From positions 760 to 28,831 of IMG/VR virus record IMGVR_UViG_3300012006_000022: a stretch of 28,072 nucleotides of DNA. One strand, given 5' to 3'. The translations under genes were made by a program, and so were the position numbers. The notes beneath the pieces are model-generated. The model searched no databases, was not told the origin of the DNA, and saw nothing but the letters and a program-made list of their open reading frames with translations. Numbering within the stretch: the stretch's first letter is position 1; every line of letters begins with the position of its first letter. Shown in pieces: positions 10,480 to 23,943 of the stretch. The DNA is from a virus.

Positions 10480-10581
10480 AGGTATTGTTCCTTGAAAAAG
10501 AGTTCTTCAAGGTGCCCGCTTGTACGCAGTGGCACCTACTGGAATGCTCCAGCGGCCACCTTGCGTAAATACTGCAGGGCT
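10480..10581 (-). promoter_or_regulatory. structured capsid mRNA leader with two exclusive folds
   Basis: Three pairings can be read on the minus strand. Fold A (10567-10523): TACGCA/TGCGTA, GTGGC/GCCAC and CTGGA/TCCAG stack into a 16-bp hairpin with loop GCAT and small internal loops. Fold C (10512-10490): CCTTGAA pairs with TTCAAGG, and the second arm contains the AAGG of the capsid ribosome site (AAGGA, then 9-10 bases, then ATG at 10479). Fold B: AGGTGCC (10537-10531) pairs with GGCACCT (10516-10510). B overlaps A at 10531-10533 and C at 10510-10512, so A+C and B exclude each other. This is the geometry of a translational on/off switch. Function is inferred. Confidence 0.6.
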
Positions 10582-10587
10582 AACCCC

Positions 10588-10615
10588 ATTTTCACATGGG
10601 TTTAAAATGTGTCAA
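10588..10615 (-). promoter_or_regulatory. sigma70-like promoter of the capsid gene
   Basis: A perfect TTGACA (10615-10610) is followed after 16 bases by GAAAAT (10593-10588, four of six to TATAAT) on the minus strand. Transcription would begin near 10581, just before the structured leader of the capsid gene. An imperfect inverted repeat (TAACCCCAT / ATGGGTTTA, 10581-10604) covers the -10 and spacer, so a repressor or activator could bind there. The promoter lies downstream of the terminator at 10770-10800, so the capsid operon can be expressed apart from the packaging genes. Confidence 0.5.
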
Positions 10616-10675
10616 ACTGTATGGAATGATGGAAAACAGCGCATGCTGAATGGCTTGTTTAATAGGCTTTTGCCT

Positions 10676-10705
10676 TTTGATCACGAAACAGATTGCGTGA
10701 TCAAA
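10676..10705. repeat. perfect 10-bp inverted repeat upstream of the capsid promoter
   Basis: TTTGATCACG and CGTGATCAAA are perfect inverted copies separated by ten bases. The element is about 60 bases upstream of the -35 box of the capsid promoter and about 65 bases past the terminator. It has no T-tract, so it is not a terminator; an operator or activator site is the simplest reading. The rest of the interval 10616-10769 holds no coding frame that I can support. Confidence 0.55.
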
Positions 10706-10769
10706 TCTATATTGCACCCAGCCTATGATATGGATGGGTTAAGGTTGCATGTTGTAGCGTGACAGCAAT

Positions 10770-10800
10770 AAAAAAAGCCCCTAGGGATTAGCTAGGGGCT
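10770..10800 (-). terminator. rho-independent terminator between packaging and capsid operons
   Basis: A perfect 9-bp stem (AGCCCCTAG / CTAGGGGCT, 10800-10792 and 10784-10776) with a 7-base loop is followed on the minus strand by seven T residues. It stands 17 bases after the small membrane protein gene and upstream of the capsid promoter. Confidence 0.92.
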
Positions 10801-10816
10801 AAAGGTTGGATGGTTG

Positions 10817-20941: not shown

Positions 20942-21466
20942 CTATTTAATTCTTAAAGAAGTTCCGCGCTGTAGTAATTTGACACCCTCAATTTCAGTTC
21001 CCATTTCCAAAGCTTTCCTAATGCTGGCGTTATCAGCTTCAATCGTGACCTTCTGGAATTGAACTGGTAACTGATCTGCTGGAAGATCCACCTGAAGTGG
21101 TTGAACTCCACCATTATTGGCTATGCTTACCTTGAAGGTTTTGCACTCAAGCTTTTGAATCGATTGAGCTTCAAAGAAAAACTTTAATCTTTCCTTTAAA
21201 CTCTTAACCATGTTTTCATTAGTCAGGGCCAAGTTCCTAATCCTTTTGGCTTCAGTCTGCCTAACTAAAGCCCTGGCCTCTATCTCCCTAATCAGCCAGC
21301 AGTAGTTTTCCACTTTGGATTCAATGGATCCTTCAAGCTCTTTCAACAGGTCATCAATGGTGGTATCAATTTCACCTGTCATTTCCCCTGCATCATCCGT
21401 CTTGGCTTCTGTTTCCATCCAAAACTTCATAATGGCTGTGCTAGCAGATAAATCAAATAAGCTCAT
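20942..21466 (-). CDS. siphovirus Gp157 family protein
   Basis: A 174-aa coiled-coil protein: MSLFDLSASTAIMKFWME, SIESKVENYCWLIREIEARA, a helical segment with KSLKERLKFFFEAQSIQKLE, then KTFKVSIANNGG and FQKVTIEADNASIRKALEMG with the end RGTSLRIK. The order (K.enY...i..le, l.e.mea...kkl.t..f.i.i..n......ik.al..g..i.ga.l....slri) is that of Gp157 proteins, found beside ssDNA-binding and recombination genes; the family was first linked to phage resistance in Streptococcus thermophilus. Start overlaps as TAATG. Confidence 0.92.
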   Translation of the reverse strand: MSLFDLSASTAIMKFWMETEAKTDDAGEMTGEIDTTIDDLLKELEGSIESKVENYCWLIREIEARALVRQTEAKRIRNLALTNENMVKSLKERLKFFFEAQSIQKLECKTFKVSIANNGGVQPLQVDLPADQLPVQFQKVTIEADNASIRKALEMGTEIEGVKLLQRGTSLRIK

Positions 21467-22194
21467 TATTTAGCCCCTCCCATCTTCTTGGCTATTAGCT
21501 TTTCAGCATCGATCCGTTGAGCTTCTACCAATTCATCAACTGAATTAACTTTGTAATGTTTTAGCATCCCCTTCATGGTGCCAGGGAAAGCATGCTCCAC
21601 TGCATTGCAAGCTTCTTGGAATGTTTCCATGGGCTTCTGCTCATCCACTACTACTGCCACTGGTGCTGCCAGAGATGGTAAAGCAATCCTAGTTTGTAGC
21701 TGTAACTGGGGTTCAACTTCAGTTTCATCCAGCCAACCAAGACCGCAGATAGATAAAGTAACCCTGCGCTTAGCCTTAGTCTCAGCACACATAATCTTGT
21801 TAGATCTGGCTTCACCCTGCAAACCCTTCAAACTGACTACCCCACAGGATTCATCATTCCTTCCAGTCATGTCCTCTGCTCGAGCTGTTACTGTGTAGAT
21901 GTCTTCCACCAGTTCCCTGCTTAGGATCTGGATGCTGACTCCATGAAGTTTCCTAAGCTGATCGCTGCAAGCTCGGGTTGCGTATAACTTCAACTTCCCA
22001 CCCAATGGGATAAACTCAAAAGGCTGGGTATGTGGATTCAGGCCAAGACTTTCACAGACCCGCATATAGTAGGCACTGCGTTGATCTTCACTTAGGGTAG
22101 ATAGATCGCCCTGGATAAGGACCGCATCTGTTTTTACTGCCTCTAGCTCAGCAGGTCTCACACTGCTATTTTTTGTCTTCAAAATTGTTGTCAT
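21466..22194 (-). CDS. putative single-strand annealing protein (RecT/Red-beta-like)
   Basis: A 242-aa protein. YYMRVCESLGLNPHTQPFEF and LGGKLKLYATRACSDQLRKL resemble the opening of RecT/Red-beta-type proteins (c...gLNP....f.....gg......y), and MCAETKAKRRVTLSICGLGW with LDETEVE is a conserved block in phage recombination proteins of this type. The C-terminus is helical with a basic end (AEKLIAKKMGGAK). Neighbours (Gp157 and SSB-like) fit a recombination module. A different family of phage recombination or repair protein cannot be excluded without a search. AAGGA precedes the ATG; it overlaps csrA by 29 bases. Confidence 0.6.
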   Translation of the reverse strand: MTTILKTKNSSVRPAELEAVKTDAVLIQGDLSTLSEDQRSAYYMRVCESLGLNPHTQPFEFIPLGGKLKLYATRACSDQLRKLHGVSIQILSRELVEDIYTVTARAEDMTGRNDESCGVVSLKGLQGEARSNKIMCAETKAKRRVTLSICGLGWLDETEVEPQLQLQTRIALPSLAAPVAVVVDEQKPMETFQEACNAVEHAFPGTMKGMLKHYKVNSVDELVEAQRIDAEKLIAKKMGGAK

Positions 22195-22357
22195 CTAACA
22201 TTTCCTTGCGAAAGATTTTAAAGTTCCTTGGCCCATCAAAACCTAATTGATAGGATCCATCCACTGCTCGCTTAAGGGTGACCACCAGAATCTTGTTCGG
22301 GTCGGATTCATCCCAGATTAATACCGATTCATTGAATTTTCTTTCTAGTATCAGCAT
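22166..22357 (-). CDS. csrA: CsrA-like RNA-binding translational regulator
   Basis: A 63-aa protein that follows the CsrA pattern from end to end: MLILERKFNESVLIWD (family MLILtRk.gEs..I.d), strands VVTLKR and YQLGFDGPRN, and FKIFRKEML (family ..v.V.R.Ei). The C-terminal Arg of the RNA-binding edge is present (R50); Thr5 of the usual start is replaced by Glu and two residues are inserted after DESD. CsrA dimers bind GGA in mRNA leaders and block or expose ribosome sites. AAGGAG eight bases before ATG, at the end of the previous gene, drives it. It may regulate phage or host genes. Confidence 0.85.
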   Translation of the reverse strand: MLILERKFNESVLIWDESDPNKILVVTLKRAVDGSYQLGFDGPRNFKIFRKEMLDDNNFEDKK

Positions 22358-22362
22358 CCTTG

Positions 22363-22560
22363 CTACTCCTTGTCTGTGGGTTCATCGTCATGTAAGACCG
22401 CCATGTACTCAGCCAAAACTTCTAGGTGTCGTTTCACCCTCCCTTCAATGTGCTTCTGTTGTCGTTTGGTGTTCTCAGGGTGTAACTGGGAACTGAAATC
22501 CAAGACTTTGGACATCTGATCCAGTAACAGGTTCGCCATTTGTTTGGTCATCCTTGCCAT
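22363..22560 (-). CDS. small early protein, unknown
   Basis: A 65-aa helical protein with GGAGG seven bases before ATG (MARMTKQMANLLLDQMSK...). It is charged, with HIEGRVKRHLEVLAEYMAVL and an acidic end (HDDEPTDKE). It is the first gene after the repeat-rich operator-like region and is followed five bases later by csrA. No family is recognised. Confidence 0.65.
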   Translation of the reverse strand: MARMTKQMANLLLDQMSKVLDFSSQLHPENTKRQQKHIEGRVKRHLEVLAEYMAVLHDDEPTDKE

Positions 22561-22609
22561 GTGTTCCTCCTATAAACTTATCCTATCCGAAATGTTTACA
22601 GTTGTCTGT

Positions 22610-22647
22610 CTGACACCTGCCTGACATCTGCCGTCAGAAGTCTGACA
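22610..22647. promoter_or_regulatory. operator-like cluster of TGTCAG repeats
   Basis: CTGACA occurs at 22610-22615, 22621-22626 and 22642-22647, so the copies are 11 and 21 bases apart, one and two helical turns. GTCAGA and TCTGAC form an inverted repeat with a 2-base spacer at 22633-22646. The cluster lies between the winged-helix-like gene and the early genes on the minus strand, the expected place of an operator for a regulator of the early operon. No clear -10/-35 pair was found. Confidence 0.5.
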
Positions 22648-22650
22648 TGG

Positions 22651-22938
22651 CTATCTGTTGATTTTGTAACCACCCTTAGCTCTGATTAGAATCATGCGCT
22701 CGACCATGTTGGACAGGCATGCCCTGAAGCTGCTGCTGTTTTCAAGCTGCATTAGATTTGCTATTTGTTGGGCTGATATGATTTCTTTTTTAACAGACCT
22801 AATCACTAGCAGTTCAAGCTCGGTAAAGAACCGCCAGTGGGAAGGTCGTTTTTTCTTCTTAGGTGTTAAATGGGCATCCTGCCCTGATTGTTCATCCTGA
22901 ACTAGCTTAAACTGTTTCGCATCGTCTTGATTATTCAT
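22651..22938 (-). CDS. small winged-helix-like protein, possible regulator
   Basis: A 95-aa protein with AAAGGA nine bases before ATG. After a polar, Lys-rich start (HLTPKKKKRPSH), the segment FFTELELLVIRSVKKEIISA, then QQIANLMQLENSSSFRACLS and NMVERMILIRAKGGYKINR, reads as a winged HTH: helix, recognition helix, beta wing. It is encoded just after the integrase and just before the repeat-rich operator-like cluster, so it may bind there. Family not recognised. Confidence 0.65.
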   Translation of the reverse strand: MNNQDDAKQFKLVQDEQSGQDAHLTPKKKKRPSHWRFFTELELLVIRSVKKEIISAQQIANLMQLENSSSFRACLSNMVERMILIRAKGGYKINR

Positions 22939-22974
22939 GGTTAGAATCCTTTCTAATGAGTTTTGTCTGAAGTG

Positions 22975-23883
22975 TTAGTTTTGAATCTCAAGGTTAAGTC
23001 CACCAATAAAATCACCACTGGGGATAGGTGTTCCCGCATAGTGACTAGTCATCCGCTGATCAGTATGACCCAGCAATATTCGTGCAGACTCTAGACCATG
23101 CAATGTCTGCATGTGTCTTGCTCGGCCAGAGCGAATACCTCTGATAGTCCATTCAGGTGGGTGCTTTAGAATTCCATTCTTAATTAATTGTAGTGTACAT
23201 TTTTTCACTACTCGCTGGTAGGTTAGCCTTGTTAAAAATCCCTCAATATTTTTTTTACTTGGAAATAGGAATCCTTTTGAGTCTGGTTCAATCTGCTGAA
23301 CAATCCTAATTGCATCAGCCCCAAGGTATAGCTGGCGATCTTGACCCCTCCATGCGCCCTTATGGTCAGGTAAAGTCCAGATCCATAGGTCAGGCTTAAC
23401 TTTGGAAAAGTTGTTGGAATTGATCTGCACGATCTCGCATGGCCTAGCTGCGGTCAGCCAGTGCAGTTGGATCAGGTTAGAAAGATATGTAGGTAAATGT
23501 GGTAGAAGCTCTGCGATTTGTAACCATGTGACAGATTTAGTCCTGACTGGTGGTCTACCCTGCCTTGGGTTTGGCATCCACATAGACTTGCAAGCTAGGT
23601 AGGTTGCTTGTGAAACCTTGCCCTGCTCCCAGCAAAAACCTACCCACCTAATAATCCGGTGTAGGTATTCCCTGATGGTCTTCCTAGCTAAGCCCTGAGC
23701 GATCATGTGATCTCGGAACTTCCGCAGGTGGGTTACAGCTAATTTCTTGGGATCGGGTAAACTGACACACTCTAGGAACTTAGCCTGGGCGCATCTGTGG
23801 GTGGTTAACTCGGTTGAGTTTTGTAGATAGGTCTGGAGGTAGTCCAGAAAATTACGAAACGAAATGGTTACTAAACTTTTCAT
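22975..23883 (-). CDS. int: tyrosine recombinase (phage integrase)
   Basis: Integrase that joins attP to a host tRNA gene. I choose ATG at 23883 (AGGA nine bases upstream) over a TTG at 23907. In the 302-aa product, residues 1-100 are the SAM-like N-terminal domain, and the catalytic domain has Arg I in AARPCEI (R147), a Lys region at LPDHKGAW, the box RGIRSGRARHM (R251; the usual His of HxxR is Arg here), LGHTDQRMTSHY with H273 and the nucleophile Y282. The tail is short. The gene lies 60 bases from the tRNA-derived core. Confidence 0.92.
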   Translation of the reverse strand: MKSLVTISFRNFLDYLQTYLQNSTELTTHRCAQAKFLECVSLPDPKKLAVTHLRKFRDHMIAQGLARKTIREYLHRIIRWVGFCWEQGKVSQATYLACKSMWMPNPRQGRPPVRTKSVTWLQIAELLPHLPTYLSNLIQLHWLTAARPCEIVQINSNNFSKVKPDLWIWTLPDHKGAWRGQDRQLYLGADAIRIVQQIEPDSKGFLFPSKKNIEGFLTRLTYQRVVKKCTLQLIKNGILKHPPEWTIRGIRSGRARHMQTLHGLESARILLGHTDQRMTSHYAGTPIPSGDFIGGLNLEIQN

Positions 23884-23943
23884 AGGTATCCATCCTAATA
23901 AGGGCAATTAAAAACCTTATCTAGGACAAACCACTTATGCGAG

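Follow-up and report, generated by a model that had tools for sequence, protein, structure and literature searches.

Organization of the genomic locus

The stretch of DNA analysed here (the window, 28,072 nucleotides) makes up the greater part of an IMG/VR record of 28.8 kb, from a bacterial virus known only from environmental DNA, and encodes a terminase, a capsid protein of the Phage_capsid family, an integrase and a Gp157-type protein. Together with a replication gene on the same contig, these bear out the phage origin put forward in the original prediction. Terminase matches are mixed as to host, and no tRNA genes were found in the window. A csrA-like gene lies on the minus strand within a compact module, listed here from upstream to downstream:

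22975–23907, minus strand: tyrosine integrase, upstream of the module (PHROG 1 integrase, E = 9e-20)
22651–22938, minus strand: 95-aa gene at the head of the module, no confident family (open reading frame; profile searches)
22363–22560, minus strand: 65-aa gene upstream in the same operon, no confident family (open reading frame; profile searches)
22166–22357, minus strand: csrA-like gene encoding a 63-aa protein, by sequence a CsrA-family RNA-binding protein (open reading frame and profile matches)
21466–22194, minus strand: 242-aa gene, sharing 29 nt with the 3' end of csrA, no confident family (open reading frame)
20942–21466, minus strand: Gp157/Gam-like gene, downstream in the same module (Pfam Sipho_Gp157, E = 1e-31; PHROG 253)

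The gene content supports the earlier placement of csrA among genes that are presumably early. Codons 2–4 of the 65-aa gene carry GCAAGGATG, and many relatives have GCACGGATG. Searches of accessory proteins against plasmids and phages gave no matches, and PADLOC run on csrA and three neighbouring genes gave none at E <= 0.01.

A divergent CsrA-family protein

The csrA-like frame starts with ATG and encodes MLILERKFNESVLIWDESDPNKILVVTLKRAVDGSYQLGFDGPRNFKIFRKEMLDDNNFEDKK. Residues 1–55 match Pfam CsrA (PF02599) with an E-value of 3.9e-8 and 33.6 bits, above the gathering cut-off of 27 bits, and the protein also matches PHROG 9500, annotated as CsrA-like regulator (E = 7e-4). The 63-aa CsrA-family frame that had been predicted at these positions, with no strand given, is thus confirmed and assigned to the minus strand. 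The same Pfam profile matches all 11 tested members of the family (E <= 0.001), and a profile-profile comparison (hhalign) of the window family with CsrA from E. coli and from phages gave 94% probability and an E-value of 1e-7. However, the protein scores only 35.4 bits against the NCBIfam equivalog for the carbon storage regulator (TIGR00202, cut-off 70.1), and we therefore consider it CsrA-like rather than a CsrA orthologue. The earlier statement that the frame follows CsrA throughout is generous in view of this low score and of an identity to E. coli CsrA of 25%.

With E. coli CsrA and Pseudomonas RsmA/RsmE the window protein shares a length of about 60 aa, the N-terminal MLIL-R strand, and residues L4, R6, P37, R44 and E46. 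It differs from them, besides its low TIGR00202 score, by the substitutions T5 to E, A36 to G and H43 to F, and by an insertion that lengthens the loop joining strands 1 and 2. The Glu at position 5 and the small insertion had both been noted before and are real, the latter amounting to six residues in the profile alignment. Seven positions (E. coli numbering) do not vary across three phage clades (see below) and E. coli CsrA: L2, L4, R6, E10, P37, R44 and E46. These include L4 and R44 (R50 in the window protein, kept with L4 and R6 throughout), which have been named as particularly critical for RNA contact by CsrA (PMC7652899). Three further positions that are constant in nine CsrA sequences compared, T/S5, G33 and A36, are lost in some or all phage clades; the window protein retains G33, which its relatives have lost. 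Two single-chain AlphaFold models are of low confidence (pLDDT 65 and 74) and predict strands 1–4, the dimer lying outside what they show. In Foldseek searches, CsrA chains were among the weak matches of the first model (E about 1), and only one CsrA chain was among the matches listed for the second.

Divergence within one genomic slot

The csrA-like gene is encoded by 31 further IMG/VR contigs, 25 belonging to the clade of the window and six to a second, distant clade that is about 49% identical to it and has K5 and D7; these counts include close relatives and do not represent independent events, and the E-values of the related-locus search are relative to candidate stretches. Within the clade of the window, dN/dS is mostly 0.06–0.30 for well-estimated pairs. 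The presence of the frame in 31 other contigs and these low ratios indicate that it is more than a chance open reading frame, and that the gene is under purifying selection.

In the records checked, csrA occupies the same slot, between a small gene without assigned function and the 242-aa gene, upstream of the Gp157-type gene. A third clade (seven contigs found) has in this slot a 66-aa protein that is 37–39% identical to the window protein. Representatives of it (L085:799-999 and L098:3217-3417) gave no Pfam match at E <= 1. By hhalign the clade pairs with the window family at 98% probability and not with typical CsrA, being recognizable through that family only. The series from recognizable to unrecognizable CsrA within one slot means that profile surveys can miss members. 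In two related records (L096:2387-2719 and L093:2387-2719) the slot lacks csrA and the 242-aa gene is preceded instead by an HTH_17-like gene, which indicates that csrA is accessory. Matches to Omnitrophota genome contigs (L014–L016) were rejected, as only the peptide DGPRNFKIF is common to them, inside a longer unrelated reading frame resembling flagellar FlgA.

Such divergence could mean that a CsrA fold has drifted away from GGA recognition and now recognizes a different RNA or a protein. Glu or Lys at position 5, Gly for A36, the change of K7 to Asp in one clade, the loss of the otherwise constant T/S5, G33 and A36, and a divergence in one slot that reaches the point of no Pfam match would all fit a changed ligand. 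However, L4, R6 and R44 are invariant throughout, and a site of CsrA consensus is kept at the gene start in two of the clades (see below); we regard this explanation as improbable.

A candidate CsrA site over the start codon

Two features overlap the translation start of csrA:

22366–22371, minus strand: csrA Shine-Dalgarno AAGGAG, also an ANGGA motif (sequence; overlaps the end of the upstream gene)
22352–22365, minus strand: predicted CsrA-type hairpin over the csrA start codon, candidate autoregulatory site (fold and conservation)

The start region reads AAGGAG-UAGC-AAGG-AUG-CUG, the ANGGA of the Shine-Dalgarno and the GGA of the start codon being 10 nt apart, start to start. A fold of 70 nt (-40 to +30) predicts the 14-nt hairpin UAGC[AAGGAU]GCUG, whose hexaloop AAGGAU (22361–22356) is closed by a C-G pair, while longer stretches preferentially fold with the start codon in other, competing pairs. 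The consensus obtained by SELEX for CsrA is RUACARGGAUGU, with the GGA in a hairpin loop (PMC7652899). At the equivalent position the second clade has AAAAC[AGGGAU]GUUA, with the predicted loop again closed by C-G, so the motif is conserved in two clades. The second stem pair differs on both sides between them, G-C in the window and A-U in the second clade, which is a compensating change, although one sub-clade retains just two stem pairs. The sites read CAAGGAUG in the window and ACAGGGAUGU in the distant clade, and the corresponding hairpin stretches UAGCAAGGAUGCUGA and AACAGGGAUGUU. No such site is present in the third clade.

Based on the motif and its conservation, the csrA start codon is the best candidate phage target that we found, and the phage CsrA may limit its own translation through this hairpin. 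There are precedents in E. coli, where CsrA represses its own translation via four leader sites, one of them over the ribosome site, and binds rpoE at the initiation codon (PMC7652899). The window gene would share with E. coli csrA a leader that holds CsrA sites (PMC7652899), and differ from it in the position of the candidate site, which lies over the start codon itself.

The conserved CARGG-AUG could also be a by-product of purine-rich ribosome-site sequence, in which case the protein may still be a CsrA-type regulator but one that does not control itself. The 14 nt before the AUG (22371–22358, minus strand) form the longest invariant run of leader and gene in 24 contigs, in which, among the 16 degenerate third positions in codons for invariant residues, only three are unchanged. 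However, several other leaders of these phages are equally invariant, and leader conservation alone is for this reason weak evidence for autoregulation. Moreover, ANGGA coincides with the Shine-Dalgarno sequence, and GGA/ANGGA motifs are not enriched across the window (221 versus 247 expected), nor are ANGGA motifs presented in hexaloops (6 versus 8.3 expected). On the other hand, the gene already has a ribosome site elsewhere, the AAGGAG at -14 to -9, csrA is the only one of 44 gene starts in the window with ANGG directly before ATG, and the motif persists in the second clade, in which these bases also form part of the upstream reading frame. Ordinary leader conservation is a serious contender, to which we give a little less than an even chance.

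The explanation that we favour, with modest confidence, is that of a phage CsrA-family regulator that acts as an RNA-binding dimer, limits itself through the start-codon hairpin, and probably has other targets too. The protein would be expressed from a presumably early operon comprising genes without assigned function, csrA, its overlapping downstream gene, the Gp157-type gene and replication genes, and would act as a small dimer on GGA-bearing mRNA hairpins. Since the start codon is part of a predicted CsrA-type hairpin, and the ribosome site forms a second ANGGA, accumulated protein would most likely block its own translation, and other phage or host mRNAs would probably be regulated as well. 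More tentatively, and with less than even odds in our view, such a self-limiting CsrA may have evolved fast within its one slot, giving rise to relatives that escape Pfam and keep only the RNA-contact residues. If this were true, hidden CsrA-like regulators would be commoner in phages than surveys with Pfam profiles suggest.

Comparison with known phage and mobile-element csrA genes

Published work bears out the earlier remark that only some phages have CsrA-like genes: one study reported csrA alleles in 30 of 2,517 phage genomes (PMC7366521), and another csrA/rsmA in numerous phages as well as in IMG/VR contigs (PMC8450108). Consistently, we found matches to E. coli CsrA in 85 of 50,697 phage records. 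Like the window gene, those of the Pseudomonas phage F116 group (RsmM), Vibrio phages, Burkholderia phages DC1 and CSP3, and PTXU04 (gp28) are CsrA-family homologues on tailed-phage genomes, sited near other early or regulatory genes. In CSP3, csrA lies upstream of the capsid gene (PMC10269572), and the csrA of Vibrio phage VvAW1 and the end of an exonuclease gene overlap, an arrangement reminiscent of that in the window. However, the phage CsrAs compared are 43–77% identical to E. coli CsrA and have T or S at position 5, against 25% and E5 in the window protein. The start-codon ARGGAU hairpin of the window gene was absent from 11 sampled GenBank phage csrA genes, and the window protein also differs from the phage CsrAs compared by its six-residue loop insertion. 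csrA is also carried by plasmids and ICEs (Legionella, Sinorhizobium pMBA19a, Methylophaga; PMC7366521), and the best plasmid matches are just 35–46% identical to the window protein. The latter is therefore a divergent addition to the phage csrA genes published since 2020; its lineage is set apart by the start-codon site and by the divergence found in a single slot.

The start-codon hairpin provides a concrete candidate for a phage target. A role directed at the host has been proposed for phage RsmA/CsrA, based on the repression of CRISPR-Cas by RsmA and the co-occurrence of phage and host CsrA (PMC8450108), and knock-down of the PTXU04 csrA homologue leads to small plaques (PMC11879866). In the window phage, the protein might likewise act mainly on host mRNAs, or dilute host CsrA by forming mixed dimers with it or by competing for decoy RNAs, changing host physiology or lowering CRISPR-Cas defence, with the start-codon motif being incidental. 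An identity of 25% to E. coli CsrA and a third clade without Pfam match are unlike mimicry of a conserved host protein, and we consider a mainly host-directed action rather unlikely. Concerning the takeover of host carbon storage or motility suggested in the original prediction, no analysis here points to it. An Rfam search of the window returned nothing, hence no known Csr decoy RNA family.

Other candidate RNA sites

Apart from the start-codon hairpin of csrA, one further candidate site was identified:

22940–22955, minus strand: leader hairpin UUAGA[AAGGAU]UCUAA, 5 bp, second candidate CsrA site (fold)

Its loop holds the ribosome site of the 95-aa gene. The sequence is conserved in the clade of the window; the distant clade keeps the loop sequence but not the stem. 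An excess of CARGGATG (seven sites versus 3.2 expected, with two of 100 shuffles as high) was too weak to be used.

The capsid leader, previously proposed as a target, was rejected: its 337 nt (10480–10816) contain a single ANGGA, which is the ribosome site itself and is partly paired in a hairpin. This leader has several inverted repeats, including AGCCCCTAG/CTAGGGGCT, which resembles a terminator and precedes a T-run, and a 13-nt repeat, TTTGATCACG; part of the capsid ribosome site is paired in a hairpin.

Finally, the gap between the 22651–22938 and 22363–22560 genes contains, at 22608–22647, three copies of GTCTGACA, one of them with a mismatch. These repeats, found in many relatives of the clade of the window, are operator-like and possibly represent a repressor site for the module.
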